From the NCBI RefSeq assembly GCF_005869855.1, contig NZ_SZNH01000003.1:1-64000 (forward strand): a DNA stretch of 64,000 bases, in the 5' to 3' direction. The first letter of the stretch is position 1, and each line of letters begins with the position of its first letter. The position numbers and the translations under genes were made by a program. Of the stretch, positions 14,857-36,166 are shown piece after piece. Under the pieces are notes generated by a model, which made no database searches, was not told where the DNA came from, and worked only from the letters and a program-made list of their open reading frames with translations. The stretch is from Nostoc sp. PA-18-2419. Its GTDB lineage: Bacteria; Cyanobacteriota; Cyanobacteriia; Cyanobacteriales; Nostocaceae.

Positions 14857-14930
14857 TTGAAGAAAAGGCATTGTAATTTTTTTAAAATCTATTTTTAGTT
14901 AGGATTGAGGATATTACTTGATATAAATAT

Positions 14931-16536: not shown

Positions 16537-19500
16537 TTAATTTTTTGGAGACTGCGCTTGAATTAAGCAATTTTTCAATATCTCGGCTAACACCTGTACG
16601 TGGGGTTCACCAAATAGAGAAAGGTGAGATCCAGGAACGTAATGAATATCTAATCCTCCAGCAAATAAGTCACCCCAACCGAATTGAGGATCGTATTGTG
16701 TACCTATAGCTTCGTCTCGATTCCGATCCTCAGTTCGCAAGAGGATAGCTCGACCAGAATAAATTGGGTAAATATATTTACTAATAGCTTGAGTGTTACT
16801 ATCTATAATCTCTAAATGTTTGTCAGTTTCAGGTAAATTAAGTGCTACTTCTAAGTAACGTTTATATTTATTTTGGAAACGTGACTTCTTCCAATAGCTC
16901 CATCTCATGACCGTTTGCCAAAGGTACATAGGCCCTTGTTGAGCTATTTTATTTAAATGCAAGAACATTCGTTTGAAAAATGGCGATCGCTTGCTATAAC
17001 CAGGACGACAACTATCAAGGATAATTAAAATACCAATTTCTTCACCTTGTTCGTGGAGCTGTCGAGCCATCTCGAAGGCAACTGCACCTCCAAAAGAATA
17101 ACCTCCGAGAAAATAAGGGCCATTCGGTTGAAGGGTCTTAATTTCTTGAATGTAGTGTGCAGCCATATCTTCAACACTAGTATCGAGAGGGTGTTTTCCA
17201 TCCAGCCCCCGTGGTTGTAGTCCGTAAAATGGTTGTTCTAAGCCGAGATGTAGTGCCAATTCACGAAAACACAAGACTTCTCCACCTAGTCCGTGAATAC
17301 AGAAAAAAGGTGGCTTGGAACCATTGGGTTGAATTGCTACCAGGGATGACCAAGTAGTTGTTGATTTATCCTCTACTGAACCCATCTTTGTTGCTAAATC
17401 TTCTTGTTGGCAAATTATTTTGGCCAAAGCCTCTACAGTACTTGACTGGAAAAGAATGGCAAGCGGTAGATTTTTATTAAATGTCTTCTCAATTTGCCAA
17501 AATAGTTTTACTGCTAGTAGAGAGTGTCCTCCTAGTTCAAAAAAGTTATCTTGAACGCCAATCGGCTGGACGCCTAAAAGTTGTTCCCAAATTTCTGTTA
17601 GCTGACATTCCACTTGATTGCGGGGAGCAACAAAAGTTCCTTCTGGCTCTTGCCTTGATAAATCAGGTGCAGGTAGAGCGCGGCGGTTTACCTTGCCGTT
17701 AGGAGTTAGGGGCATGGTGTCCAGCAAGACGAAAGCTGAAGGTAGCATGTACTGTGGCAGCTTTGTCGAGAGGAAGCGCCGGATTTCACTAATTGTAGTT
17801 ACTGAGTCTTGATTTGGGATAATGTAAGCTACTAAACGTTGATCGCCAGGAACATCTTCACGGGCAACTACTACAGTCTGAAGTACATTTGGGTGTTGGG
17901 CTAATACCGTCTCAATTTCTCCTGGTTCAATGCGTATCCCACGGATTTTGACTTGATAATCTTGGCGACCGAGAATTTCTAGAAAACCATCTGGACGATA
18001 GCTACCGCGATCGCCTGTATAATAAATCCAATCTTGTTCGTTATTCCCAAAGGGATTTTGAACAAACCGAGAACGGTTTTCTTGCTGGGCATTGATGTAG
18101 CCCAAACTCCGGAATGGAGTTCGGATAACAATTTCCCCTGGTTCACCAATGCCACACAGTTGATGATTTGGTGTGAAAACCAGTGCTTGGGTTTGTGGTA
18201 ATGGCGATCCTACTGGCTGTACCCCAGGTGTACACTCAACAGGTACTCGGTAATAACATTTGGCTAAAGTTGTCTCTGTCGGGCCATAAAGATTCACAAT
18301 CTCTCCTGATTCTGGGAAAGCATCTCGCCACCGAAGTACAAGTGTTTCTTTAAGAGGTTCTCCAGCAAAAAATAACCAGCGTAAGTTACGTAGAAAAACT
18401 CCTGAGGGTACATTACCTAACCAAGATTGTGCCAAGGAAGGAACTGTGTGCAGCACAGAAATTTGCTCGTGTTCTAAGTAAGGCAAAATTCTACTCGGTT
18501 CTAAATTATCCCCTTCCTCTGGTAAACACAGGGTTGCACCACTAATCAAAGGTAAGAAAATATCTCTCAGGACGACATCAAAGGAAAGATTTGTTAATTG
18601 GGCAACACGGTCTTGCTGACCAATTTTAAATGTCTGTCGTTGCCAGTTAAGAAAATGTGCCATTCCTTTGTGACATCCCAGCACTCCTTTTGGTACACCT
18701 GTGGTGCCGGAAGTAAAGAAAATATAAGCTGCATCCTCACCAGTGATTTGGGGTAAGTTGACGGTTTGATTATTGCCCTTAGATGAATTTAAAATTTCTC
18801 CTGTATCTGGATTTACACAAATACAGATTAAAGATTCAGCTATACCCCTATCTGCTTGATCCTGACTATCTATATATAATATGTATTTAGCTTTAGCTTC
18901 TTGTAGCATAAGTTGGTGGCGCTCGCTAGGTAGTTTCGGATCGAGTGTCAACAGCACACCGCCACTCAAAAGTACGCTCACCATACTTGCAATCAGCCCA
19001 AAGCTTCGCGTCCCAAACACGGCTACCACATCTCCCTGTTGGACTCCCTGGGATAATAAAACCTGTGCTAAGGCTTGAGCTATTTTGGCTAATTCCTCAT
19101 AATTCCAACTGCGAGATCCTTGACCAACTGCTGAATGTTCTGGAATCGAGTTTACCCAAGAGGTAAACATTGTTGTTACCAATTCGTACTCTGGTTCTGG
19201 CAACACTGCACTTGGTTCTGGCAGCAAAAATCGGGCTTGTGGTGTGACAAGAGAATACAAATTGATTTGTCTGTCTGGAGCAGCAACAATCTGCTTGAGC
19301 AAATAATGGAATTGTTCGAGCATTTCCATCATCCGCTCTCGAGTAAATAAATCGGTATTGTAGACTAAATCAAGTTTGATTCCTTGGTTTTGCTCTGTAA
19401 CATACAAAGTTAAGTCAAACTTAGAAGCTGTTTCTAACATTGACACTGGTTCTACAGCCACTCCAGGTATTTCCAATTGGATGTCCTTTAAGTTGAGCAT

Positions 19501-22500
19501 ATTGAACCATACTTGAAATAGTGGGTTGCGGCTGGTATCTCGTTCTGGTTGCAGTTCTTCCACCAGTTTTTCAAAGGGCATATCTTGATGGGCATAAGCA
19601 CCCAATGCCATCTGGCGGACTCGACTCAGCACTGAACGAAAACTAGGGCTGCCAGAAAAATCAGTCCTTAAAACCACAGTGTTAATAAAAAATCCAATCA
19701 ATCCTTCAATTTCAGAACGGTTACGTCCAGCAATCGGAGAACCAATGAGAATATCTTCTTGCCCACTGTAGCGATGCAGTATTGCTCCAAAGGCTGCCAG
19801 CAAGGTCATGAATAAAGTGACACCTTCCTGACGGGAGAGTTCTGTCAGAGACGCACTCAAGCTTTGGGGTAGCATTAAAGATTGAGCCGCCCCTTGGTAA
19901 GTTTGGATTGGTGGCCGTGGTCGGTCAGTGGGCAATTCCAGTACAGTATTAGCACCTGCTAACTGGGTTTTCCAGTAGTTGATTTGGCTTAAGAGGACTT
20001 CACCCGATAACCATTGACGCTGCCAAACAGCAAAATCGGGATACTGAATCGGTAATTTTGCTAACGGGGATGGCTTGCCGTTTAAAAAAGCTTCATAAAC
20101 TGCTGCTAATTGCTGCCAGAGAATGCCCATCGACCAGCCATCTGAGGCAATGTGGTGCATGACCAACAAAAGTATTTGCTCTGTTTGGTTTATTTGCAGC
20201 AAGCTAGCTCGCAGCATCAAGTCAGATTCTAAGTTGAAGGGGCTTTGCGCTTCTTGATTGAGGAGACATTGCGCTTGCTCCTGTGTGAGTTTAATAATCT
20301 TGAGTTCGACTGGTCGAGGTGTAGCGATTACTTGTATGGGGCTACCATCAACTGATTTAATAAAGTTTGTTCGCAGTGCTTGGTGATGAACAACGATCGC
20401 ATCTAGTGCCTGTTGCAATACACCGATATTTAATTCACCAGTCAAGCGCTGTGCATCCGAGATAATATATGCTCGGCTATTGGGTTCCAACTGCTGCAAA
20501 AACCAGACTCGCTGCTGAGCAAAAGATAATGGGGCTGATTTTTGGCTGGCTATTTCGGGAATGATTTGGTTTTGGGGATTATTTTCTAAAATTTGGTTTT
20601 GAGCGAGCGCTTGAGCTAAGTTAGCGATCGTGGGATTCTCAAACAAAAGTTGCAAAGGTATTTCTATCCCGAAAGCTTGGCGAACTCGAGACATGACTTG
20701 AGTAGCCAGCAGTGAATGCCCTCCTAATTCAAAAAAATTGTTGTGGATACCTATTTGTTCCAGACGCAGAACTTTTGCCCAGATGTTAGCTAAAACTTTT
20801 TCTGTAGGATTCTGAGGTAGAACAAAGTTAGTCGATAAATCAAGATCGGATATATCTGGTGCAGGTAAAGCGCGACGGTCTATTTTCCCATTGGGGTTTA
20901 ATGGTAAGGTGTCCAAAAGTACAAAGTAGCTAGGTATCATGTATTCTGGCAGCCGACCTTGCAAAAACTGTCGTAATTCAACCTGAGTCGGAATTTGCTC
21001 TGAACTAGCAACGATATATGCCACAAGTCCTTTGTCGCCAGGAACATCCTCTCTGACGATGACTAAAGTCTGCGTCAATGCTGGATGTTGACTGAGTACA
21101 GCTTCAATTTCTCCCAATTCAATCCGAAAGCCGCGAATCTTTACCTGGTGGTCAATGCGACCAAGGAACTCGATATTACCATCGCTGTTGTAACGTGCTA
21201 AGTCTCCCGTTTTATAAAGGCGGGCTGATTTTAAATTTTGAAATTTGTTTTCAGATTCAATATTTTTACAAGATTCTAAATCCTCACCAGTATTGCCTAA
21301 CAAAAAGTTGAAGGGGTTGGGTATAAACTTCTGTTTAGTTAGTTCTGGACGGTTAAGATAACCCCGCGCTAGACCAATACCACCAATATACAGTTCACCT
21401 GATTCACCAACAAGCACAGGCTGTAAGTTTTCATCAAGGATGTAAACTAGTGCATTAGCAATAGGGTGACCAATGGGAGCAATGATATAATTAGTTTCAC
21501 GCTGGCAAGTCCAGAAAGTGGTATCAATGGAAGCTTCTGTCGGTCCATAACAATTGTGTAGAACATTATCTAAATTCAATTGGGCAAAGAACCGCTGTAT
21601 TAGTTCGCCAGGTAAAGCTTCACCACCGCAGGTAACGTGCCTGAGAAATTGGCAATTTTCAATTCCCTTTTCTTCTAATAAAACACGCAGTATTGAGGGT
21701 ACTAAGGCTAAAACAGTGATTTGCTGCTCGGTAATCACTTTTACAAGATAAGCAGCGTCTTGATGTCCACCAGGGCGAGCCATAATTAATTGCCCCCCAA
21801 AGCACAATGGCCAGAATATCTGCCACACTGAGGGGTCAAAACTAAAAGAAATTGTTAATAAAACTTTGTCTGTCTGAGTTAAACCAAAGGTTGTTTGCCG
21901 CCAATACAATTGATTGCAGATTCCAGAGTGAGGAATCGTTACACCCTTGGGCTGTCCTGTAGAACCAGATGTGTAAATTACGTAGATTAGATTATCAAGT
22001 GTTGTCTGGTTTACAGGATTATCTTGATTATTTTCAGCGTTTTCCTCCAAAAACAAGTCTAGACAAATTATTTGCGCTTGATGCAGTGGTAGGTTCTTAA
22101 TCAATTTCTCTTGGGTTAACAACACTGGTGTTTGTGTATCTTCCAAGATGAAAGCTAAACGCTCTTTTGGATATGATGGATCTAAAGGCACATAAGCGCC
22201 TCCAGCTTTGAGAATTCCCAACAGTCCTACAATCATCTCCAAGGAGCGCTCTAGACAAATACCCACAAGTACTTCCGGTCCAACGCCTAAAGTACGTAGA
22301 TAGTACGCTAGCTGATTTGCCTGTTGATTCAACTGTTGATATGTAAGTTGTATGTCTTCAAATACTACAGCAATTGCTTGGGGCGATCGGTCTACTTGCA
22401 TTTCAAACATTTGATGAATGCATAGATTCTGAGCAAATGGCTGAATATTACTCGATTCATATGCAACTTCAGTGCCAAGGATGTGAGTTAAGCTATCTAA

Positions 22501-22545
22501 TGGAATATTTTCTTTATATTCTGAAGTATTACTATTTATTTGCAT
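16537..22545 (-). CDS. Dimodular non-ribosomal peptide synthetase (A-PCP-C-A-PCP-TE)
   Basis: A 2002-residue NRPS. Domain order: adenylation 1 (about 40-560; YTSGSTGQPKG, NCYGPTEAS, PNGKIDRR), carrier 1 (LGGHSL, Ser611), condensation (about 670-1110; HHIASDG at 797-803), adenylation 2 (about 1125-1625; FTSGTTGVPKG, NLYGPTETT, PNGKVNRR), carrier 2 (Ser1675) and thioesterase (GYSFGG with Ser1817; Asp1844 and His1974 as likely partners). Having no leading condensation domain, module 1 should start the chain; the product would be a two-unit peptide released by hydrolysis or cyclisation. Read by eye, the pocket residues of adenylation 1 are D,P,W,S,V,C,C,I,D,K and of adenylation 2 D,V,R,S,F,A,L,L,A,K; I recognise neither as a known code. 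There is no phosphopantetheinyl transferase nearby. Confidence 0.95.
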   Translation of the reverse strand: MQINSNTSEYKENIPLDSLTHILGTEVAYESSNIQPFAQNLCIHQMFEMQVDRSPQAIAVVFEDIQLTYQQLNQQANQLAYYLRTLGVGPEVLVGICLERSLEMIVGLLGILKAGGAYVPLDPSYPKERLAFILEDTQTPVLLTQEKLIKNLPLHQAQIICLDLFLEENAENNQDNPVNQTTLDNLIYVIYTSGSTGQPKGVTIPHSGICNQLYWRQTTFGLTQTDKVLLTISFSFDPSVWQIFWPLCFGGQLIMARPGGHQDAAYLVKVITEQQITVLALVPSILRVLLEEKGIENCQFLRHVTCGGEALPGELIQRFFAQLNLDNVLHNCYGPTEASIDTTFWTCQRETNYIIAPIGHPIANALVYILDENLQPVLVGESGELYIGGIGLARGYLNRPELTKQKFIPNPFNFLLGNTGEDLESCKNIESENKFQNLKSARLYKTGDLARYNSDGNIEFLGRIDHQVKIRGFRIELGEIEAVLSQHPALTQTLVIVREDVPGDKGLVAYIVASSEQIPTQVELRQFLQGRLPEYMIPSYFVLLDTLPLNPNGKIDRRALPAPDISDLDLSTNFVLPQNPTEKVLANIWAKVLRLEQIGIHNNFFELGGHSLLATQVMSRVRQAFGIEIPLQLLFENPTIANLAQALAQNQILENNPQNQIIPEIASQKSAPLSFAQQRVWFLQQLEPNSRAYIISDAQRLTGELNIGVLQQALDAIVVHHQALRTNFIKSVDGSPIQVIATPRPVELKIIKLTQEQAQCLLNQEAQSPFNLESDLMLRASLLQINQTEQILLLVMHHIASDGWSMGILWQQLAAVYEAFLNGKPSPLAKLPIQYPDFAVWQRQWLSGEVLLSQINYWKTQLAGANTVLELPTDRPRPPIQTYQGAAQSLMLPQSLSASLTELSRQEGVTLFMTLLAAFGAILHRYSGQEDILIGSPIAGRNRSEIEGLIGFFINTVVLRTDFSGSPSFRSVLSRVRQMALGAYAHQDMPFEKLVEELQPERDTSRNPLFQVWFNMLNLKDIQLEIPGVAVEPVSMLETASKFDLTLYVTEQNQGIKLDLVYNTDLFTRERMMEMLEQFHYLLKQIVAAPDRQINLYSLVTPQARFLLPEPSAVLPEPEYELVTTMFTSWVNSIPEHSAVGQGSRSWNYEELAKIAQALAQVLLSQGVQQGDVVAVFGTRSFGLIASMVSVLLSGGVLLTLDPKLPSERHQLMLQEAKAKYILYIDSQDQADRGIAESLICICVNPDTGEILNSSKGNNQTVNLPQITGEDAAYIFFTSGTTGVPKGVLGCHKGMAHFLNWQRQTFKIGQQDRVAQLTNLSFDVVLRDIFLPLISGATLCLPEEGDNLEPSRILPYLEHEQISVLHTVPSLAQSWLGNVPSGVFLRNLRWLFFAGEPLKETLVLRWRDAFPESGEIVNLYGPTETTLAKCYYRVPVECTPGVQPVGSPLPQTQALVFTPNHQLCGIGEPGEIVIRTPFRSLGYINAQQENRSRFVQNPFGNNEQDWIYYTGDRGSYRPDGFLEILGRQDYQVKIRGIRIEPGEIETVLAQHPNVLQTVVVAREDVPGDQRLVAYIIPNQDSVTTISEIRRFLSTKLPQYMLPSAFVLLDTMPLTPNGKVNRRALPAPDLSRQEPEGTFVAPRNQVECQLTEIWEQLLGVQPIGVQDNFFELGGHSLLAVKLFWQIEKTFNKNLPLAILFQSSTVEALAKIICQQEDLATKMGSVEDKSTTTWSSLVAIQPNGSKPPFFCIHGLGGEVLCFRELALHLGLEQPFYGLQPRGLDGKHPLDTSVEDMAAHYIQEIKTLQPNGPYFLGGYSFGGAVAFEMARQLHEQGEEIGILIILDSCRPGYSKRSPFFKRMFLHLNKIAQQGPMYLWQTVMRWSYWKKSRFQNKYKRYLEVALNLPETDKHLEIIDSNTQAISKYIYPIYSGRAILLRTEDRNRDEAIGTQYDPQFGWGDLFAGGLDIHYVPGSHLSLFGEPHVQVLAEILKNCLIQAQSPKN

Positions 22546-23435
22546 TTTCTATATATCAATAACTCACTAAAGTCTGTGGTTCCACTTGATCTTTCTGCTA
22601 AAGCCAATGTTTGCTGAGGATTTTTTAACTTTCTTTTATCTGTAAATTTATCATCAAAGCACTTTAAGTAAGCTTCTATATAGCTTATCCAGACTCTCAT
22701 GAAGGCGAAAACGGCTTTAGCGATCGCTTGAATCAGCAGCAATGGTGTATAATTGCTGAGTGATCGAAAGTTTTGCTTATCTAGCCCAGAATTCTTTTTA
22801 TACTTTTTTACTAAAAATTACATATTTTTATATTTCACATCAATTACATTATATTAATGTGTAAATTATTAGAATTTCACCTTATTACTTAAAATTTATA
22901 ATCAGATTAATAATTAAATAAATTCAATAGACTAAGTATAAACAAGTGCTTTACTTCTTAGTTAGTAAATTAATATTTGCTTTTTTCTATTATGGCAAAT
23001 ATCTCAATATTTATTTTATATAAATTTGCAGAGACAAAAAATAATTATTACCGAATCTTCATCGTATTTATTTATATGTAAAATTACTGTAAAGTATTGA
23101 TATCAATCGTTGCCTTCACTACGCAAAATAAGTAGAATTTTTGAAAATAGATTTCATAGCGTAAGCCCGTAGTTTATCATAAATGAAATTAAATTCAGTC
23201 TAGAGTCCAGTCGGAACAAAAAAAATTGTAAAAATAGTTGAGTCTCTAAGTAAAGGAGCAAAAATCTCTGTCATATAAATATAAAAATATCTATAAATTT
23301 CAAGTATCTTTTTTACAACTCGAAGGGATTAAAAATAATTTTTAGATCTGTATGTTTGCAGAATAATTTTATTATTTTTGTAATACAGGCGTATTGCTTG
23401 ATGTATTTAGCCTGAGAAAACGCTCATTTCATAAT

Positions 23436-23476: not shown

Positions 23477-23653
23477 CTAGGAGCAATTTTGTACTTAAGA
23501 TGTCCAAAAACTATTGTTATTGTAACAAAATTTTCCAAAAAATGTAAATTTTTGTAAAAAAAAATAACATTTTTGACGTATTTTGTTATATGTTGTGTCT
23601 GTAACTTTTTTTAACTTACTATAAATGACGCGTGAAAAAACGGAGAAGCTTTT

Positions 23654-23706
23654 TAGCAAAACTAAATTAGTTTAGCTAGACATGCTACAGTAACTCCGGA
23701 AGGAGT
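23654..23706 (+). promoter_or_regulatory. Tandem hairpins, possible structured leader
   Basis: Hairpin 1 (23654-23678) pairs TAGC/GCTA and AAACT/AGTTT. Hairpin 2 (23693-23706) is ACTCC-GGAA-GGAGT with a GNRA-type tetraloop and is followed by ATCATTTTT. Together they could form an attenuator in a long leader of the polysaccharide locus. No known riboswitch consensus was recognised. Confidence 0.4.
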
Positions 23707-24091
23707 ATCATTTTTCTGCAAGGACACCTCTCCAATTGAACTGTAAGGATTCAGTCCATAAATTACGTACGTTACAAATTCTAATATCTTTATCCGGTTT
23801 CTCTAAAATTATTAACAGCAAGAACTCTAATTAAGTCAACAACAAATTCTTTGCTTCACATCAAAGCTCAAAGTTTGCAGATCAAACTAGACGAAAGTTT
23901 GTAATAAATGCTAACTATTTGCCTAATACTTATACTTAGACCCTTTAATATATTTTTGATACAGAGTCAGCCTTACTTATAAATAATGAGTAACAGTCAA
24001 ATATAAAGGTTACCTTTGTATAACAAAATGTGAGATACTCTACTTGACATAGTTCCAAGAAAAATTTTAAAAACACCAAGTGTTACTAACT

Positions 24092-25912: not shown

Positions 25913-27343
25913 ATGGGAAAAAACCGAAAGTTAATAAGTAATTCCCTTTCAATGGTAGTTAATCGATTAGCGCAAAGCATTACAACCTTTGTTTTAACTG
26001 CATCTATTGCTCGCATCTTAGGAGCTGAAGCTTTAGGTCAATATCTACTGGCATTTACATATTATTTTATATTTGTAAGTATTGCCTCACAAGGATTAAA
26101 GACTTTATTTACCAGAGAAATAGCACGTTATCCAGAAAAAACACCACTTTATTTAATAAGTGGAACTTGGTTGCAGTTAATTTTCAGTTTGCTGAGTTAT
26201 GTAGTTCTAGTAATCTTAGTTTTTTTACTACCCTATACTTCCGAAACCTCGACTGCTTGCTACATCATGGGTTTAACCATCATTCCGTTTTCACTTTCCA
26301 ATATTACTGAGGCCATTTTTCAAGCTAAAGAAAAAATGCATCTAATTGCCATTGCTACAGTTCCAGTGTATGTAATACGTTTATTCCTCATGCTCTGGGC
26401 AATGCAAATGAATTACGGAATCGATTATATTGCAGGAATTCTAGTTTTTTCAGAATCGTTAATTCTGGTAATTGAGTGGATTTTAATTAATAAACTAGTT
26501 AAAGCAAAATGGAAAATTGATAAAGATTTTATTTACAGTATAATCAAAAATGCACGTACATTCTTTGCTATTGAAGCACTAGCTGTAGTCAATGGTAGAA
26601 TTCAAATTTTAATTCTTTCATTATCAGGGAGTGAGTTTATAATTGGTATATATGGTGGAATAACACAATTGTTCCAGCCCTTTTTTATTATTGCTAATAG
26701 TATATGCATAGCAATGTTTCCAGGATTATCAAAAGCAGTAACTAAAGGACGCGAAAGTCAGCGAAAAATTATCTCAAATTGTATTGAGATGTTATTAATC
26801 ATTGCATTACCTTTATCTATTGGTATGCTGTTTCTTAGTAAAAATTTACTGACTTTTGTCTATAATCCTAGCTTTGCTCAAGGAAGTTTAGCTCTAAGTG
26901 TCATTGCTGTATCATTAATTTTTATACCTTTTAATCAGTCATTATCTTTTTTACTTGTAGCAAATGGTTTTGAGATTGTAAACCTTCGTCAGGTAGCTGT
27001 TAACACTACCTTAGGAAGTTTGGCAGGTGTGATACTAGTTTCACAATATAACTTATTAGGTGCAGCAATAATGGCTTTTTTAATGAGTTTTATTGCTTTT
27101 AGCCAATATATTTACTTCACCTCTACTCTTATATTTCCATTAAATTACTGGCAAATTATGCGATCACCTTTATTAATTAGCATTTTGATGTCAATGGTAT
27201 TTTTTATACTAAAAAAAATTGAGTTAGACTTTTTATTGACCATAGCAATTGCGACTTTTTGCTATATTCTATTTGTGAGCTTATTGATGATTCATACTTT
27301 AGGTGGAATCCATGTTGCATGGCAAAAAATTGTAAAAAAATAA
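25913..27343 (+). CDS. Oligosaccharide flippase, MOP superfamily (Wzx)
   Basis: A 476-residue polytopic protein that should flip the lipid-linked repeat unit made by the neighbouring enzymes. It begins SNSLSMVVNRLAQSITTFVL and then has RILGAEALGQYLLAFTYYF, the typical first-loop pattern; the length suits about twelve to fourteen helices. It is the second flippase in the window, and only distantly similar to the one at the left end, so two different export routes are likely. It is located between the priming enzyme and a GT2 gene, the usual place for Wzx. Confidence 0.9.
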   Translation: MGKNRKLISNSLSMVVNRLAQSITTFVLTASIARILGAEALGQYLLAFTYYFIFVSIASQGLKTLFTREIARYPEKTPLYLISGTWLQLIFSLLSYVVLVILVFLLPYTSETSTACYIMGLTIIPFSLSNITEAIFQAKEKMHLIAIATVPVYVIRLFLMLWAMQMNYGIDYIAGILVFSESLILVIEWILINKLVKAKWKIDKDFIYSIIKNARTFFAIEALAVVNGRIQILILSLSGSEFIIGIYGGITQLFQPFFIIANSICIAMFPGLSKAVTKGRESQRKIISNCIEMLLIIALPLSIGMLFLSKNLLTFVYNPSFAQGSLALSVIAVSLIFIPFNQSLSFLLVANGFEIVNLRQVAVNTTLGSLAGVILVSQYNLLGAAIMAFLMSFIAFSQYIYFTSTLIFPLNYWQIMRSPLLISILMSMVFFILKKIELDFLLTIAIATFCYILFVSLLMIHTLGGIHVAWQKIVKK

Positions 27344-27415: not shown

Positions 27416-28405
27416 ATGGAATTTATTCAATCAGGAAGAAAAACTCAAAGTTTAGCAATGGTAAATGAGAGTTCTCAACCAGTAATCAGTGTTGTGATTC
27501 CTACACGCAACAGACCACAAATTGTTGTCAGAGGAGTAAAAAGTGCGTTAAGTCAGACATTGCAATCAATTGAAGTGATTGTAATAATAGACGGCCCAGA
27601 CCAGGAAACAGTCAATGCACTATGTAAAATAGGTGATCCAAGACTGAGAGTGATAGAACTATTAAAAAATATTGGACCATCAGGGGCTAGAAATACTGGG
27701 GTTAGGGAAGCAAAAGGTACTTGGATAGCTTTTTTAGATGATGATGATGAATGGCTCCCTCAAAAATTACAACTTCAACTAGAAGTAGCAAATAATTCTA
27801 ATTATGATTTTCCAGTAGTTGCTAGTCGTTTCATTTCTCTAACTCCAAAAGGGGAATTTATTTGTCCAAGAAGGCTACCAAAACTCTCTGAGCCTTTAAG
27901 CGAATATCTTTTTGTTCGTAACTCCTTTTTTAAAGGAGAAGGATGCATACAAACCTCCACTATTTTTGTGAAAAAAGAGATGATGGAAAAAATGCCTTTG
28001 GAAGAAAAATTTTATAGACATGAGGATTGGGAGTGGTTGCTTCGAGTTAGTGCAATTAAAGGTGTAGGAGTAGAGTTTGTACCTGAAGCTATGGCAATCT
28101 GGCATTCAGAAATGGGAATCAAGCGCTTAAGCAACGTCAATGACTGGAAATATTCCTTAGATTGGATTCGTTCAATCCGTAATTTAGTTACACGGAAAGC
28201 TTATTCTGGCTTTATTGCAACAATTGTTAGTCATTCTGCGTCATTAGTAGGTGACTGGAGAGCTTTCTTTCCTTTATTGTGGGAAGCTATTCGTTGGGGC
28301 AAGCCTCGACCAATAGATATATGCTTATACTTAACAATCTGGTTGATTCCTCAGAATATTAGACAGCAAATTCGTTCTGTTTTGAATAAAAATCCCATAA
28401 CATGA
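27416..28405 (+). CDS. Glycosyltransferase, GT2 family (GT-A fold)
   Basis: A 329-residue inverting glycosyltransferase acting in the cytoplasm on the growing lipid-linked sugar. ISVVIPTRNRPQIVVRGVKSALSQT starts the nucleotide-binding domain, IGPSGARNTGVREAKG follows, and WIAFLDDDDEWLP carries the metal-binding DxD motif. Later REDWEWLLR-like HEDWEWLLR contains the probable catalytic acid region. The gene is 72 bases from the flippase and on the same strand. The donor sugar is not predictable. Confidence 0.9.
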   Translation: MEFIQSGRKTQSLAMVNESSQPVISVVIPTRNRPQIVVRGVKSALSQTLQSIEVIVIIDGPDQETVNALCKIGDPRLRVIELLKNIGPSGARNTGVREAKGTWIAFLDDDDEWLPQKLQLQLEVANNSNYDFPVVASRFISLTPKGEFICPRRLPKLSEPLSEYLFVRNSFFKGEGCIQTSTIFVKKEMMEKMPLEEKFYRHEDWEWLLRVSAIKGVGVEFVPEAMAIWHSEMGIKRLSNVNDWKYSLDWIRSIRNLVTRKAYSGFIATIVSHSASLVGDWRAFFPLLWEAIRWGKPRPIDICLYLTIWLIPQNIRQQIRSVLNKNPIT

Positions 28406-28688: not shown

Positions 28689-29765
28689 ATGAATAAAAAA
28701 TTAAATTTATTACAAGTTTATCGTGGTGTTGCTGCTATTCTGGTAGTTTTATGCCACGCCAATCATATACTTACTCGTGAATTTAATAAAAATACTTTAT
28801 TGCAAATATTTCATTTTGGCTGGATAGGTGTTGATTTTTTTTTCGTACTGAGTGGATTTATCATATTTTACATTCATCAATATGATATAGGTAAACCAAA
28901 TAAATTAAAATCTTTCATTGTGAAAAGATTCATTCGTATATATCCATTATATTGGATTATATTAGCTAGCAAAATTTTAGTTTCTATATTTACTATTAGT
29001 AAAAATGCAATTTATCAGCCAGGTGCAGACGAAATCATTAAAGCTTTTTTGTTACTACCACAAGACAGATCCATTCTAGAGAATAATTTTATTGGTGTTA
29101 GTTGGACGCTTAGTTATGAAATTTTTTTTTACTGCCTATTTGCCTTACTAATATTGTTCAACACAAAAATTTTTCAGCCAATAATTTTTATTTGGATTGT
29201 TGGTATTATTATCAGTTTTTTAAATGGTTTACCAGGAGAAAATTTGATATTAATGTTTATATTTGACGAACATAATTTAGAATTTGTTCTTGGTTGCTTA
29301 GCTGCATATATTATTTCTAAATTTAGATTTAAGTTTAAAAAATTATTAATTTACACTTCTATTTTTATTTTAATATTATCAGTTATAAATACAAAGTATG
29401 GAGAGTATGATGTCTCAGGTATTTCCTCATTAATAGCTTATGGCATTCCTTTTACATTTCTTATTATTGGATCTGTATATTTAGAAATGTCGAGTAAGAT
29501 AAATATACCATTAATTTTAATTTATATAGGAAATGCATCCTATTCTATATACTTAACACACGGTTTCTTCTTAAATAATATAAGTAAATTTACTAGTAAA
29601 CTTACTAAATATAATGTTTTATCTAATTATACAAGTGACAATATAATTGCACTTGTAACAGTCATAATGGCAATAGTTATGGGGTGTTTTGTCCATACTT
29701 ATTTGGAAAAGCCATTAATTGCAAATTTAAAAAACAAAGTATTTGCTCAAATTCATGAAAAATAG
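28689..29765 (+). CDS. Membrane acyltransferase, family 3 (OafA/NodX type)
   Basis: A 358-residue inner-membrane protein with about ten helices that adds acetyl or other acyl groups to carbohydrate. Its N-terminus, LLQVYRGVAAILVVLCHANH, holds the conserved R and H of the family; WIGVDFFFVLSGFIIF and the positively charged loop IVKRFIRIYPLYW follow. Later YSIYLTHGF is a typical near-C-terminal motif. Its location among glycosyltransferases argues for O-acetylation of the exopolysaccharide. The gene is very AT-rich. Confidence 0.92.
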   Translation: MNKKLNLLQVYRGVAAILVVLCHANHILTREFNKNTLLQIFHFGWIGVDFFFVLSGFIIFYIHQYDIGKPNKLKSFIVKRFIRIYPLYWIILASKILVSIFTISKNAIYQPGADEIIKAFLLLPQDRSILENNFIGVSWTLSYEIFFYCLFALLILFNTKIFQPIIFIWIVGIIISFLNGLPGENLILMFIFDEHNLEFVLGCLAAYIISKFRFKFKKLLIYTSIFILILSVINTKYGEYDVSGISSLIAYGIPFTFLIIGSVYLEMSSKINIPLILIYIGNASYSIYLTHGFFLNNISKFTSKLTKYNVLSNYTSDNIIALVTVIMAIVMGCFVHTYLEKPLIANLKNKVFAQIHEK

Positions 29766-29828: not shown

Positions 29829-31067
29829 ATGAGGAAACTTTTAATTTCTGCCGAACAATTAATTACAATTACTTGTTTAATAATTTATTCAGGAACTCCA
29901 TTAGATCCATTTTTAACTAATGGCTTTACTGTAAAAGAAGGTGATAGAACTATATTTCGATTACTTTACACTTTTACATATATAGTCATCTTTTTATTAA
30001 TCGCTCTACGCTGGAAGAAGGTTATCCGTGTTATTGGCAGAGATAAACTTGTTTGGGTCTTAATTGGAGTTTGTGCACTTTCTAGTTTTTGGTCTTTAGA
30101 TTCAGATACTACTATACGTAGGGTTTTTGGTCTCATAGGAACAACGTTATTTGGAGTTTATTTAGCTTCACGTTATACCTTAAAAGAACAATTGAAGTTA
30201 TGTACCTACATGCTTGGTATTTCAGCAGTAGCGTGTTTTTTAATTGTTTTGTTGATGCCACAGTATGGTCTTGGAGTGGAGGAACATGCACGTGCTTGGC
30301 GAGGAATATACTCACAGAAGAATATTTTAGGTAGGAGATTTGTACTTAGTGGAGCAATATTTTTCTTCGTTGCTATGACTACTCGACAAAATCGCTGGGT
30401 TTCATGGCTTGGCTATATTGCTTCAGGAATACTTGTATTCTTCTCAAGCTCAACAACATCTTTAGGGAATTTGCTCATACTTACAGCGGCTTTCCCCATA
30501 TATCACAAAATTTTACGCTTCAAGTATACAACGTTAATACCTACTTTGACATTCATCAGCGCTGCAAGCATAGCTTTTTATGCCTGGTTCATAACGTATG
30601 CGGATCAAATTTTGGGAAGTGTCGGTAAGGATACAACACTCACTGGACGCTCAGAGATCTGGCCTGCTGTGTTAGATCTGATTGCAAAAAAACCGTGGTT
30701 AGGGTATGGCTATGGAGCATTCTGGTACGGCTCTGATACCTCAGGCGCGGCTTATGTACAAGCAGCAGCAGGATGGCCGGCTCCTAGTGCTCACAATGGA
30801 TTTCTGGATCTCTGGCTAGCCTTGGGTTTATTAGGAGTTTTGGTTTTTTTAATGGGATTGTTAGTAAATTTCTTCAGAGGGATATATTTAATTAGGCTGA
30901 ATAAAATGCCTGAAAATAATGTATGGTTATTAATTTATCTAACCTTTACAATTGTTTCAAACTTTACTGAAACCATATTACTAGAACAGAATTCTATTGA
31001 ATGGACACTTTATGTATCAGCTATATTATCAAGTCAAATATCTCTTCCTTCCAAAACAAAGTTATAA
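29829..31067 (+). CDS. O-antigen ligase/polymerase family protein (Wzy/ExoQ-like)
   Basis: A 412-residue membrane protein with about eleven helices. The outside loop reads TGRSEIWPAVLDLIAKKPWLGYGYGAFW, followed by PSAHNGFLDLWLALGLLGV, the arginine- and histidine-containing core of the Wzy_C domain. This group joins repeat units into polymer (ExoQ, Wzy) or transfers glycans to lipid A. Given the adjacent flippase and kinase genes, polymerase is the best reading. It starts 63 bases after the acyltransferase. Confidence 0.88.
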   Translation: MRKLLISAEQLITITCLIIYSGTPLDPFLTNGFTVKEGDRTIFRLLYTFTYIVIFLLIALRWKKVIRVIGRDKLVWVLIGVCALSSFWSLDSDTTIRRVFGLIGTTLFGVYLASRYTLKEQLKLCTYMLGISAVACFLIVLLMPQYGLGVEEHARAWRGIYSQKNILGRRFVLSGAIFFFVAMTTRQNRWVSWLGYIASGILVFFSSSTTSLGNLLILTAAFPIYHKILRFKYTTLIPTLTFISAASIAFYAWFITYADQILGSVGKDTTLTGRSEIWPAVLDLIAKKPWLGYGYGAFWYGSDTSGAAYVQAAAGWPAPSAHNGFLDLWLALGLLGVLVFLMGLLVNFFRGIYLIRLNKMPENNVWLLIYLTFTIVSNFTETILLEQNSIEWTLYVSAILSSQISLPSKTKL

Positions 31068-31163: not shown

Positions 31164-32240
31164 ATGTATAAAAGTCATGCTATAAAAATTATTATGTTAG
31201 GTCCTAGTTTGCTTCAACAGGGTGGAATTTCTGGTTACGAAAAGCTTTTTTTAGAATATGCTCCTCCAGAAGTTGAAATATGCCATATTATTACTCATCA
31301 AGAAGGAAATTTAGCAATCAAAATCATAATATTTTTGAAAGCTATATGGAAATTAGTATGGATATTACTCAAGCAAGAAGTTGATCTTGTTCAACTTCAG
31401 ATATCACAGCGTGGTAGTATTTTACGACAAGCAATTATGATAATTTTAGCTTGGGTATTTCAGAAACCAATAATAATACATGCTCATGGTAGTCAATTTC
31501 ATATATTTTTTGCTGGGCTTCCAAAATATTTCCAGCAATTGTTAAGTTGGATATTTGGCAAGTGTCAAAAATTAATTGTTTTATCTGAAAGTTGGAAAAA
31601 CTTTTATATAAAAAACCTTGGTCTTAAACCAGAACAAGTAGTAGTTTTATATAATCCAGTAAAAGTTCCTGTGGAAGTTCCACCTCGTTCAGATTCCGAA
31701 AAAGTAAATTTACTTTTCTTAGGACGAATTGGGCAACGCAAAGGAGCATTTGATTTGATCAAAGCCTTTTCTCTTCTACCTATTGAATATAGAAATAGAG
31801 CTAATTTAATTATGGCAGGTGACGGAGATTTAGAGCAAGCAGACAATTTAATTAAGACTTTAAATCTAGAGAATTATATCAAACTGCCTGGTTGGATAGG
31901 GTCAGATGAACGTGATATTCTTCTAACTCAGGCAGATGTTTTTGTATTGCCTTCTTACAATGAAGGTCTTCCATTAGCAATGTTGGAAGCAATGGCTTGG
32001 GAACTACCAGTCATAGTAACACCAGTAGGAGGTATACCTGAAATAGTAACTCAATCTCAAAATGGATTAATCGTTAATCCAGGTAATATTGAAGAATTAT
32101 CAAGTGCTGTTAAGTCTTTGATTGAAAATGAAATTTTGAGGCTTTCTCTTGGAGAAAAAGCTAGAATAAGTGTTTTTCCTCTAGATATCAAAAAACATTG
32201 GATTTCTTTTATAAATCTATATCAGTCAGTGTTAAATTAG
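31164..32240 (+). CDS. Glycosyltransferase, GT4 family
   Basis: A 358-residue GT-B enzyme. The N-terminal domain has a glycine-rich loop in LGPSLLQQGGISGYEKLF; the donor domain has LLFLGRIGQRKGAFDLIKAF and the E-x7-E-type segment PSYNEGLPLAMLEAMAWELP, followed by VTPVGGIPEIV, all standard for GT4. It probably extends the lipid-linked repeat unit on the cytoplasmic side. It lies between the polymerase-like gene and the nucleotide-sugar dehydrogenase. Confidence 0.92.
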   Translation: MYKSHAIKIIMLGPSLLQQGGISGYEKLFLEYAPPEVEICHIITHQEGNLAIKIIIFLKAIWKLVWILLKQEVDLVQLQISQRGSILRQAIMIILAWVFQKPIIIHAHGSQFHIFFAGLPKYFQQLLSWIFGKCQKLIVLSESWKNFYIKNLGLKPEQVVVLYNPVKVPVEVPPRSDSEKVNLLFLGRIGQRKGAFDLIKAFSLLPIEYRNRANLIMAGDGDLEQADNLIKTLNLENYIKLPGWIGSDERDILLTQADVFVLPSYNEGLPLAMLEAMAWELPVIVTPVGGIPEIVTQSQNGLIVNPGNIEELSSAVKSLIENEILRLSLGEKARISVFPLDIKKHWISFINLYQSVLN

Positions 32241-32308: not shown

Positions 32309-33610
32309 ATGAAAATTAGCATTTTTGGTTTGGGATATGTTGGTGCTGTAACAGCAGCTTGCTTGGCACGAGACGGACATGAAGTCATTGGCGTAGATGT
32401 CAACCCCGAAAAAGTAGATTTGATCGCCAAGGGAGAATCGCCAATTGTAGAGCCAGGGTTGAGTCAGTTGTTAGTAGACGGAGTGGCGGCTAACTTAATC
32501 ACAGCTACTACTGATACTGAAGCAGCAGTGCTAGGATCAGATGTCTCGCTCATTAGTGTTGGCACACCTCCAACAGAGAGGGGAGAACCCGATCTTAGTT
32601 ACGTTTGGAGTGTCTGCAAGCAAATTGGGAAAGCTGCTAGCCATAAGAGTGAAAACCATGTAGTTGTGTTGCGTAGCACTGTCCCTCCAGGAACATTAGA
32701 AAAGTGTCAAAATCTGATAGAGAGTATTACAGGTAATAGCTCTATCCATCTAGCATTTAACCCAGAGTTTTTACGGGAAGGTTCAGCTATCAAAGATTAC
32801 GATCAACCACCTTATACTATTATCGGTACTGAATCTCCCATAGCAGAAGCAGCAGTGCGGCAGATGTACGCCACTGTAGATGCACCCTTCACGATAGTCA
32901 AACCATCTGTGGCAGAAATGGTTAAATATGTAGCTAATTGCTGGCACGCTGCCAAAGTAGGCTTTGCTAATGAAATCGGACGGGTTGCCAAAGCTTTTGG
33001 TGTAGATGGACGAGAAGTAATGAACATCATCATACAAGACACAAAATTAAATATTTCCCCTGTTTATATGCGTCCTGGATTTGCCTATGGTGGTTCCTGT
33101 CTGCCCAAAGATTTGAGTGCTTTGCTTTACTACGCACGTAGCATGGATATACCAGTACCTTTACTAAACGCCCTTCCGACTACTAACACCCTCCAAGTTG
33201 ATTTGGCGGCCCAGCAGGTATTACGCCTTGGGGTAAGAAAGATTGCTGTTTTAGGATTAGCATTCAAACCAGGTACAGATGACTTGAGAGAAAGTCCAGC
33301 AGTGTTGTTAGTTAAGCGATTGATTGGGGAAGGATGTCAGGTAAAAATATATGACCAAGCTGTCTATGAAGCTCGATTAATGGGAACCAATTTAGCTTAT
33401 ATCCAAAATAACCTCCCTCATTTTGAGGATCTATTAGTTGCAGAACCCCAACAAGCTCTGGAGGATGCAGAAGTCGTAATAGTTACCTATGCTAGTCCAG
33501 AGTTTCGGCAGATATTACACGAAGCGGTCAAAGAAAAACAAATTTTTGATCTGGCTGGTGTCTTTAGTGAACCGATTAAAGAGTTAAATTATTCTGGTAT
33601 TGCTTGGTAA
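32309..33610 (+). CDS. Nucleotide-sugar 6-dehydrogenase, GDP-mannose (AlgD)-like
   Basis: A 433-residue NAD-dependent enzyme that oxidises C6 of a nucleotide sugar twice to give the uronic acid. N-terminal Rossmann domain MKISIFGLGYVGAVTAACLA, then SPIVEPGL and NPEFLREGSAIKDYDQPPYT, and the catalytic cysteine in FAYGGSCLPKD (Cys264). SPIVEPGL, AIKDYDxPP and the short G-rich C-terminal domain resemble AlgD (GDP-mannose) more than the UDP-glucose enzymes, but the split is not certain without a tree. It would supply GDP-mannuronate or UDP-glucuronate for the polymer. Confidence 0.85.
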   Translation: MKISIFGLGYVGAVTAACLARDGHEVIGVDVNPEKVDLIAKGESPIVEPGLSQLLVDGVAANLITATTDTEAAVLGSDVSLISVGTPPTERGEPDLSYVWSVCKQIGKAASHKSENHVVVLRSTVPPGTLEKCQNLIESITGNSSIHLAFNPEFLREGSAIKDYDQPPYTIIGTESPIAEAAVRQMYATVDAPFTIVKPSVAEMVKYVANCWHAAKVGFANEIGRVAKAFGVDGREVMNIIIQDTKLNISPVYMRPGFAYGGSCLPKDLSALLYYARSMDIPVPLLNALPTTNTLQVDLAAQQVLRLGVRKIAVLGLAFKPGTDDLRESPAVLLVKRLIGEGCQVKIYDQAVYEARLMGTNLAYIQNNLPHFEDLLVAEPQQALEDAEVVIVTYASPEFRQILHEAVKEKQIFDLAGVFSEPIKELNYSGIAW

Positions 33611-34458: not shown

Positions 34459-35682
34459 ATGTCTAATAAAGTATTAATAATTGTAGAAAACCTGCCTGTT
34501 CCCTTTGATCGGCGTGTATGGATGGAAGCTAATACCCTAACAAAAGCTGGGTATGAAGTTTCAGTAATTTGTCCCAAAGGTAAAGGCTTTGAAGAAGAAT
34601 ACGAGGTGATCGATGGCGTTCACATTTATCGCCACTCAATGCCACCTGATATTAGTTCGGTCTCTGGTTATCTACGGGAGTACGGTACAGCACTTTATTG
34701 GGAGTTTCGCCTCGCTCATCGAGTGTGGCAAGAGCGCGGTTTTGATATTGTTCACATTTGTAATCCTCCAGATTTACTATTTTTGATAGCAGGGTGGTTC
34801 AAGTTATTCAAAGGTGTAAAAGTCATATTTGATCATCATGATATCAATCTAGAGATGTACGAAGCTAAGTATGGACGACGAGACATATTCTACTATGGAC
34901 TCTCCTTGGTTGAAAGACTGACTTTTGCCACAGCTGACGTAGTTATATCGACTAATGAGTCTTACCTCTCGGTAGCACTTACCCGTGGACGCAAAAGTCC
35001 AGAAGATGTCTTTGTTGTTCGCAGCGGACCTGATCTTTCCCGCTTTCAACCCCTACCCCCCAACCCAGTTTACCGTAAAGGACGAAACTATTTGGTGGGA
35101 TATGTTGGTGTCATGGGAGAACCAGAGGGAATCGATTATCTACTCCAATCAGTGCGCTACATTATCTATGAAAAAAATCGCCACGACATTCAGTTTATGC
35201 TCATCGGTAGTGGACCGATGTTTGAAAAGCTTCAAGAATTATCTCAAGAGTTAGAAGTAAATGAATATGTAGAATTTACAGGTCGTATTCCTGATAATGA
35301 ACTTTTAGAAAGACTTTCCAGCTGTGATATATGTGCTAATCCTGATAAAAAAATGCCCTACAATGACCGTTCGACGATGAACAAGATTATGGAGTATATG
35401 GCAATGGGAAAACCCATTGTTCAGTTTGACCTTTTGGAAGGAAGGCGATCAGCAGAAGCAGCATCTGTTTATGCAAAAGGTAACGACGTGGTGGATTTTG
35501 CTGAGAACATTCTTGAACTTCTAGAGGATACTCAGCGGCGACAGCAGATGGGAGAGCTAGGTAGACAAAGAATGGTGGACAAACTAGAGTGGCGACATCA
35601 AGTACCTAAGCTGTTAGAGGCTTACAACAAAGCTTGGCAAGGTAAGAAAGATTCCAGCCCTGAATCCAGAAAGCAACTTTAA
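34459..35682 (+). CDS. Glycosyltransferase, GT4 family
   Basis: A 407-residue GT-B enzyme. Opening KVLIIVENLPVPFDRRVWMEANTL is characteristic of the group often annotated with WcaI/colanic-acid-type and Pel-type GT4 enzymes; the donor domain shows VGYVGVMGEPEGIDYLLQS and a nucleotide-sugar loop ending KIMEYMAMGKPIVQFDLLEG. The E7E-type pattern is altered, lying in DRSTMNKIMEYMAMG. It sits between long non-coding gaps and just before the tyrosine-kinase gene. Confidence 0.9.
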   Translation: MSNKVLIIVENLPVPFDRRVWMEANTLTKAGYEVSVICPKGKGFEEEYEVIDGVHIYRHSMPPDISSVSGYLREYGTALYWEFRLAHRVWQERGFDIVHICNPPDLLFLIAGWFKLFKGVKVIFDHHDINLEMYEAKYGRRDIFYYGLSLVERLTFATADVVISTNESYLSVALTRGRKSPEDVFVVRSGPDLSRFQPLPPNPVYRKGRNYLVGYVGVMGEPEGIDYLLQSVRYIIYEKNRHDIQFMLIGSGPMFEKLQELSQELEVNEYVEFTGRIPDNELLERLSSCDICANPDKKMPYNDRSTMNKIMEYMAMGKPIVQFDLLEGRRSAEAASVYAKGNDVVDFAENILELLEDTQRRQQMGELGRQRMVDKLEWRHQVPKLLEAYNKAWQGKKDSSPESRKQL

Positions 35683-36166
35683 CACTACGCTCAAAATTTT
35701 TGAAAGAACTTGCTGCTTCTAAATAATTGATTTATGATGCGGCAAGTCATTGATAACAATCTTGTCTGAAATTTAGAATTCTCAGGTAGTTTTTGCTCAA
35801 AAGCAAACCAGCGATCCCTGTTGTGAATACAGGATTAAGTGATCGCTATACTTGCTTGCTGTGATTCCAACCCTGGTGATGATGCTACATTAAGACCTTG
35901 TATCACTCAATGGTAACCGCAAGCTAAATCAACTTCAACTAGCATTGCATTTTACTTTTAATAACGCTCCTCAAGATTAATAAATGTTGGCTTTAGATCG
36001 ATAAAACCAAAGCCTGTAGATTATTTGAGCGCTTTATTACTTAAATAGTTTATACTATGTGTCATATTGTAAAATAACGTTAGTTTTACTAATAGCTGTG
36101 CATTGTATCTAGTTTAGATAAAGACCGATATTGAATTGCTCGCTTAAAACCCTACTTTTGACCATT
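35683..36166 (+). other. 484-base gap before the Wzc-like gene
   Basis: A bulged hairpin occurs at 35810-35847: an outer AGCGATC/GATCGCT stem and inner CCTGT/ACAGG stem, with a 7-base bulge. The outer arms are HIP1-related. The rest is AT-rich; no gene or clear terminator can be supported. Confidence 0.5.

Follow-up and report, generated by a model that had tools for sequence, protein, structure and literature searches.

In Dlt-type D-alanylation of surface polymers, an adenylation enzyme and a carrier protein work for a surface polymer, and in the cyanobacterial nonribosomal peptide synthetases (NRPSs) for microcystin and anabaenopeptin the core of an adenylation (A) domain has been replaced while its flanks were kept. 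A third precedent is MysE of the shinorine pathway, a protein of the build A-PCP-TE (PCP, peptidyl carrier protein; TE, thioesterase) that is described, in the accessible part of one report, as adding serine to mycosporine-glycine (PMC11378024). Here we describe an NRPS encoded in a 64,000-nucleotide stretch of the genome of Nostoc sp. PA-18-2419 (the window) and its conserved place beside an exopolysaccharide (EPS) locus. It shows the same exchange of an A core between conserved flanks as the microcystin and anabaenopeptin enzymes, but unlike them as three alleles at one EPS-linked locus across a genus; its monomodular relatives share the A-PCP-TE build of MysE; and, like the Dlt enzymes, it is proposed to serve a surface polymer. 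NRPSs and MysE-like release are already known; what appears to be new is an NRPS that is EPS linked, partnered by a DUF6875 protein and allelic in its second module, and the enzyme is more interesting for this context than for its architecture. Searches of the accessible portions of the open-licence literature turned up nothing on this NRPS gene and no account of an NRPS-EPS linkage in Nostoc.

A dimodular NRPS and its EPS neighbour

The gene occupies positions 16537 to 22545 on the reverse strand and encodes a protein of 2002 amino acids with an ATG start. Some form of it is present in 50 of 53 Nostoc genomes, and at all 46 testable loci, the window included, an EPS operon is divergent from it. 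Judged by gene order, the NRPS-EPS linkage is therefore conserved across the genus and the NRPS is no orphan, as the initial annotation had called it. Forty-nine other loci were fetched, four of which (L104, L105, L116, and L309) were not judged, their contigs having less than 2.5 kb on the EPS side; in the remaining 45 of 45 the divergent EPS operon was the first recognised block 5' of the NRPS, opened by WcaJ in 39 and by Wzx in 6, across a gap of 1.0 to 3.3 kb. None of 27 control NRPS loci (11 stretches of the window's own genome and 16 multi-module loci from relatives) had a recognised homolog of WcaJ, Wzx, Wzy, Wzc, or Wza, in a set whose own-genome stretches lie on 8 contigs, some overlapping or adjoining, in which some stretches are short (4.8 kb in L339), and which leaves out a paralog of the same family on contig C12 that does adjoin Wzx and Wzc. 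Throughout, recognition of EPS genes relied on BLAST with the proteins of the window and of the paralog locus (L037), a search that distant homologs may escape.

The 50 genomes comprise 41 with a dimodular enzyme, 7 with an intact A-PCP-TE protein, and 2 with a broken or partial copy. Twenty-seven of the dimodular orthologs, counting that of the window, are of the window type (identity of at least 82%); the other 14 are 76 to 81% identical over the first ~1100 residues and divergent thereafter, one of them (G326) ending at a contig end. Eight candidates were scored per genome, the counts being among the matches listed, and the 12 genomes without a dimodular ortholog were searched again with the A-PCP-TE form. 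This yielded the 7 intact proteins, from Nostoc species that have only A-PCP-TE at the EPS locus, a broken copy in G293, and, at a contig end of G320, a partial one; no form was found in G296 (72% complete), G333 (85%), or G330 (99%).

The domains of the window protein, all on the reverse strand, are as follows (C, condensation).

20830..22455: A1 domain, amino acids 31 to 572, pocket DPWAVCCIDK
20581..20829: PCP1, amino acids 573 to 655, LGGHS at 607
19222..20580: C domain, amino acids 656 to 1108, HHIASDG at 797
17626..19221: A2 domain, amino acids 1109 to 1640, pocket DVRHLFLLAK
18016..19164: A2 core, the exchanged segment, amino acids 1128 to 1510, mean identity 28 to 30% to the Gly and Ser alleles (see below)
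17356..17625: PCP2, amino acids 1641 to 1730, LGGHS at 1671
16540..17355: TE domain, amino acids 1731 to 2002, with GYSFG, Asp, and His retained

The A-PCP-C-A-PCP-TE order in a single protein, read earlier by eye, was borne out by Pfam, which found two AMP-binding, one Condensation, two PP-binding, and one Thioesterase domain and two AMP-binding_C stretches, each over its cut-off. The catalytic motifs are intact (LGGHS twice, HHIASDG, and GYSFG), TSG[ST]TG.PKG, YGPTE, and NGK are kept in both A domains, and the Ser, Asp, and His of the TE are conserved in an alignment of ten sequences, so that a loss of catalytic residues, looked for by alignment, was not found. With A, PCP, C, A, PCP, and TE domains and their motifs, the protein is a dimodular type I NRPS. 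Median dN/dS values by domain of 0.10 to 0.21 (40 sampled pairs of genes with the window's second-module allele, termed X here) indicate that the gene is under purifying selection, and it apparently encodes a real, functional enzyme. Neither NCBIfam nor the PDB linked the protein closely to a characterised NRPS whose product is known: among the best 25 of 112 NCBIfam families no NRPS equivalog scored above its cut-off, and the top PDB match (best 60 of 307) was linear gramicidin synthase A, over common domains. A DltA-like reading of A2 from NCBIfam was dropped, the subfamily score exceeding its cut-off only as the sum of both A domains; the scanned genes include no DltB and no DltD.

Pocket residues were taken from the alignment at what we take to be the GrsA positions. 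The A1 pocket reads DPWA[VI]CCIDK in 39 of 41 genus orthologs, the fourth place being T in one and G in one; PCP1 has LGGHS in 39 of 41 (the exceptions read LGGNS and FGGHS), and HHIASDG is present in all 41. Across the class, the A1 code of A-PCP-TE relatives is the same as that of the window or near it, and in the closest relatives of other types most codes are DVWHVCL[IV]DK and DAWQ[IV]CLIDK, which we take to be Ser-like and Gln-like codes. From the codes presumed here, the A1 pocket could be aromatic, Arg-like, or a derived Ser/Gln type, and we make no choice among these. Relatives of A2 have the pocket D[VA]R[HN].F[LF][LM][AV]K. The initial annotation had recognised neither pocket code; neither is matched to a substrate here, and the second has proved to be one of three alleles.

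The reported position between membrane glycosyltransferases and an exopolysaccharide locus was confirmed. PMT_2 and PIG-V membrane glycosyltransferases at 13549 to 16418 form the 3' flank of the NRPS, and from 24080 on, 1.5 kb away on the 5' side and divergent, lies a Wzx/Wzy EPS locus with a full core set of initiating transferase, Wzx, Wzy, Wzc, and Wza.

23014..23110: conserved non-coding block 1 of the NRPS-EPS interval, in 47 of 49 loci at 75 to 92% identity, a candidate divergent control region
23543..23900: conserved non-coding block 2 of the same interval, in 47 of 49 loci at 66 to 82% identity
24080..25531, forward strand: WcaJ-type polyprenyl-phosphate sugar transferase, opening the divergent EPS operon
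25913..27343, forward strand: Wzx-type flippase
27416..28405, forward strand: GT2 glycosyltransferase
28689..29765, forward strand: Acyl_transf_3 membrane acyltransferase, recognised in just 3 of 49 other stretches
29829..31067, forward strand: Wzy-type polymerase
31164..32240, forward strand: GT1 glycosyltransferase
32309..33610, forward strand: UDP-sugar dehydrogenase
34459..35682, forward strand: GT1 glycosyltransferase
36131..38395, forward strand: Wzc-type chain-length/tyrosine-kinase protein
41205..42674, reverse strand: Wza-type export protein

A search of the NRPS-EPS intergenic region against Rfam gave no match up to E = 1.

Exchange of the second adenylation core

Among the 41 dimodular orthologs the A2 pocket reads DVRHL[FLC]LLAK in 27, the window included (X), DILQI[CS]LVWK in 5 (Gly), and DVWHVCLIDK in 8 (Ser), and one ortholog is without A2; the names assume that DILQ..L.WK is a glycine-like and DVWH..LIDK a serine-like code. 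Mean identities of the Gly and Ser alleles to the window protein are 85 and 83% in A1, 71 and 70% in C, 28 and 30% in the A2 core, 65 and 63% in the A2 subdomain, 81 and 81% in PCP2, and 75 and 77% in TE, and the Gly and Ser alleles are 47% identical to each other in the A2 core, 87% in C, and 89% in the A2 subdomain. From this domain-wise pattern, the module 2 alleles are products of A-core exchange, which in the X allele extends into the end of the C domain. In a quick tree built from A1-PCP1 (86 rows, with SH-aLRT support only), all 41 dimodular enzymes form one group (support 100), and on its starred branches at least three changes are required for the Gly allele and at least three for the X allele. 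The EPS-locus enzymes cluster as well (48 rows, support 91, below the mark of 95), and the A-PCP-TE forms are basal, with EPS-locus examples in Nostoc flagelliforme and Desmonostoc muscorum. Such a natural series of exchanged A cores behind a constant first module should be useful for NRPS engineering.

We also compared the A2 allele with the polymerase of the adjoining EPS operon, classed by identity to the window's Wzy as high (at least 62%) or low (at most 42%). Numbers of high and low loci are 14 and 9 for X, 3 and 2 for Gly, and 0 and 7 for Ser. The Fisher value for Ser against X plus Gly is 0.008, but it ignores relatedness, and the association between A2 allele and Wzy class is therefore only suggestive. 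Excluded from this comparison were L024, L025, L104, L105, and L116 (contig too short), L124 (no A2), the A-PCP-TE loci (4 high and 2 low, with no data for L309), and the broken L310 and L311.

DUF6875, a partner of the NRPS family

Away from the EPS locus, relatives of the NRPS usually adjoin a gene for a protein of 218 to 291 amino acids that belongs to DUF6875 (PF21780, over its cut-off; matches in the class survey have E values of 1e-51 or better). The window genome has its own DUF6875 gene on the same contig as the NRPS, about 400 kb away (G000:C46:421594), and the earlier description of the NRPS as without tailoring enzymes is in this respect misleading. In the class survey, DUF6875 is present in 20 of 388 genomes, 4 of them Nostoc. 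Fifteen of the 16 from other genera have an enzyme of this family alongside, 14 of these being intact, with the pocket motif SFDPSVW, at a distance of 9 to 727 bp, and the fifteenth a contig-end fragment at 1084 bp with its pocket outside the sequence. The Fisher value for co-occurrence (19/1/1/367) is 5e-30, with the fragment scored as positive, relatedness ignored, and absence of the enzyme resting on search thresholds, not all matches having been coded. A further 21 loci of relatives, chosen by position off the EPS locus and not by genus (some are named Nostoc: FACHB-152, MG11, and B(2019)), include 16 with DUF6875 within 9 to 802 bp. Two of the 21 (L190 and L196) come from genomes already in the survey, and in L188, L200, and L201 the upstream DNA is too short to judge.

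Within Nostoc, DUF6875 was found in 51 of 53 genomes, that of G333 being a contig-edge piece; the exceptions are G296, which is incomplete, and G330, in which joint loss of the NRPS and DUF6875 is likely. At the EPS locus, no DUF6875 gene was recognised in any of the 49 stretches. What the window has directly upstream of the NRPS is a remnant:

22593..22805, reverse strand: DUF6875 remnant, matching amino acids 139 to 215 of 227 only, at 44%

Of 51 EPS-locus sequences, 6 have the remnant immediately ahead of the NRPS (the window, L087, L088, L089, L113, and L307) and in 45 it was not found; 20 shuffled queries gave no match in the same search. Its position suggests that DUF6875 and the NRPS probably once formed an operon at the EPS locus, where the DUF6875 gene has since decayed.

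The AlphaFold model of the DUF6875 protein of the window genome has a pLDDT of 91. With E values under 0.001 Foldseek returned only five entries, all AglA (E of 6e-5 to 7e-4, TM-score of 0.42 to 0.45); VIA-align gave AglA Z values of 9.5 to 9.8 over ~150 residues, the next row scoring 6.8 over 49 residues, and its rows besides AglA covered single helices or parts only. A PDB profile search with DUF6875 gave nothing significant. AglA, of the YqcI/YcgG group, is a thiolate-heme arginine hydroxylase with Cys44 as heme ligand, according to the accessible part of its description (PMC12866846). DUF6875 resembles it in the modelled fold and in the position of a cysteine, Cys46, that is invariant in 37 of 37 sequences and is a candidate heme ligand; the two differ in that their identity is 7 to 9% and AglA substrates are arginine derivatives. 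DUF6875 proteins are moreover stated to be heme-binding enzymes that oxidise L-tryptophan in a 2026 source, likewise accessible in part, that cites a preprint for this (PMC13307353). From what is accessible on the "cytochrome P422" heme enzymes, exemplified by ZigI, these share with the Nostoc protein the PF21780 family and the invariant cysteine, but ZigI works in a terpenoid pathway, whereas DUF6875 is here paired with an NRPS. By analogy, DUF6875 is a probable heme amino-acid hydroxylase, and a newly recognised heme enzyme family would thus be paired with peptide synthesis in cyanobacteria.

Product and acceptor

The EPS linkage in most genomes, the repeated A2 swaps, and the separate heme-enzyme partner suggest that the NRPS probably supplies the coat with an amino-acid product. 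We tentatively favor the reading that the NRPS is functionally part of the Nostoc Wzx/Wzy EPS locus, taking up an amino acid hydroxylated by DUF6875, extending it, and transferring it through its TE, plausibly to EPS. In this scheme, the thiolate-heme DUF6875 would hydroxylate an amino acid, which the published family assignment would make tryptophan, and A1 would load the product. Module 2 would, in most species, add Gly, Ser, or, where the code is DVRHL.LLAK, another residue, and the TE would pass the group, aminoacyl or dipeptidyl, to a nucleophile other than water, as MysE does. The last step is the least certain, and the group might go to EPS itself, to the lipid-linked repeat unit of EPS, or to a metabolite retained in the sheath. 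A more specific version, in which a heme-hydroxylated, perhaps tryptophan-derived group sits on the sheath polysaccharide and A2 exchange generates Gly, Ser, and X coat chemotypes in a serotype-like manner, seems to us rather unlikely as it stands; were such coat decoration real, the NRPS would be a polysaccharide-modifying enzyme.

Transfer by the TE, in place of hydrolysis, is suggested by the A-PCP-TE orthologs and by MysE. One operon (L343:7156-13436) of the mysA-B-C type (DHQ synthase, O-methyltransferase, and ATP-grasp protein) carries an A-PCP-TE protein with the Ser-like pocket DVWHVCLIDK that is likely MysE. The A-PCP-TE proteins of L303, L037, and L184 are 48 to 50% identical to it over nearly their whole length, and its identity to the window protein is 54% over A1-PCP1 and 37% over PCP2-TE. 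As an NRPS by which an acceptor gains an amino acid, MysE serves here as a mechanistic precedent only: the MysE-like L343 protein differs from the NRPS family, in which the pocket is DPWA[VI]C[CV]IDK in all but a few cases and the companion is DUF6875. Membership in a mycosporine pathway was rejected, since no mys genes adjoin the NRPS and its pockets (DPWAVCCIDK and DVRHLFLLAK) are not of the Ser type.

EPS as the acceptor is suggested by the linkage together with other polysaccharide contexts. The paralog in the window genome (L037:9074-11746, on G000:C12) is an A-PCP-TE protein of 890 amino acids whose pocket, DPWAICCIDK, is of the same type as A1, and its neighbours are Acyl_transf_3, an FkbM methyltransferase, Wzx, and Wzc; L193, L197, and L199 largely keep this locus, with no Acyl_transf_3 recognised in L197 or L199. 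EPS-like operons at L028:8494-19998 and L029:8168-20000 hold C-A-PCP and C-A-PCP-TE proteins with A2 of the window type, these modules adjoining an Acyl_transf_3-like gene and, in L028, there being also a PKS-type protein with an aminotransferase. L182 and L184/L185, where only glycosyltransferases were recognised (plus Acyl_transf_3 in L182), are not counted as EPS linked.

Several observations weigh against this assignment to the EPS locus. No transferase is constant there: Acyl_transf_3, suggestive as a general transferase from the window, L028, and L037, was rejected in that role, occurring in only three of the 49 other stretches (L090, L091, and L092), most of which span ~11 kb of the EPS side, with genes beyond that out of view. 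No WcaJ, Wzx, Wzy, Wzc, or Wza was recognised at 16 stretches (L312 to L327) or at the 21 further loci of relatives, which argues that the chemistry of NRPS and DUF6875 needs no EPS. EPS genes also persist without the enzyme in L331 (G330:C68), where WcaJ and Wzx stand beside AKR393 and the NRPS is missing between WcaJ and AKR393. A stop breaks the A-PCP-TE copy of G293 (L310), a genome that still has a DUF6875 gene at another site, and the G302 match has a stop marked within it. The partnership itself has exceptions: G476 has a 184-amino-acid DUF6875 and no such enzyme nearby, in G556 the enzyme is present and no DUF6875 was found, and L182 and L187 have no DUF6875 in more than 8 kb of upstream DNA. 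A tryptophan-derived A1 substrate is not readable from the pocket, whose nearest relatives of other types are Ser-like or Gln-like, and the AglA fold match is only moderate, since Z is near 10 but TM is under 0.5.

Some of these points fit a different reading, that the NRPS and DUF6875 make a small free or conjugated metabolite (sunscreen-like, a signal, or an inhibitor), secreted or kept in the sheath, with EPS proximity reflecting shared regulation and no attachment to the polymer. The DUF6875-linked relatives without recognised EPS genes and the lack of a constant sugar-directed transferase would be expected, the two non-coding blocks shared by 47 of 49 loci are consistent with shared control, release is the usual role of a TE, and the accessible part of PMC11378024 reports mycosporine-like amino acids, themselves small molecules, from EPS extracts. 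Set against this, the A-PCP-TE forms depend on an acceptor or on dimerisation, the paralog and L028/L029 stand in other polysaccharide contexts, and the scanned neighbours include no transporter apart from the EPS export system. We consider a soluble metabolite possible, though not probable. Hydrolysis by the TE to a free dipeptide, in keeping with the complete line for a dipeptide-like product proposed by the initial annotation, we consider unlikely: the A-PCP-C-A-PCP-TE assembly is indeed complete and its catalytic triad intact, but the A-PCP-TE orthologs at the same locus would cycle futilely if the TE merely hydrolysed, which makes a plain free dipeptide doubtful. Least probable is that the operon landed beside EPS genes once in a Nostoc ancestor and stayed without functional tie, since, although the clustering of the EPS-locus enzymes would allow a single landing and G330 has EPS genes without the NRPS, the 3' flank varies among species while the EPS side is constant in 45 of 45 testable loci, the local DUF6875 decayed while the NRPS was retained, and polysaccharide contexts recur elsewhere.

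If assignment to the EPS locus is correct, a genus-wide, sheath-linked NRPS moves what would be filed as a "cryptic orphan cluster" into cell-surface biology, and whether Nostoc EPS bears NRPS-made groups becomes a testable question. On the variable 3' side of the NRPS, the neighbours are PIGV-PMT in the window's nearest relatives and genes in the order AKR-CNNM-Mfd in many others. The GC content of the NRPS reading frame is 42%, against 38% for the window.

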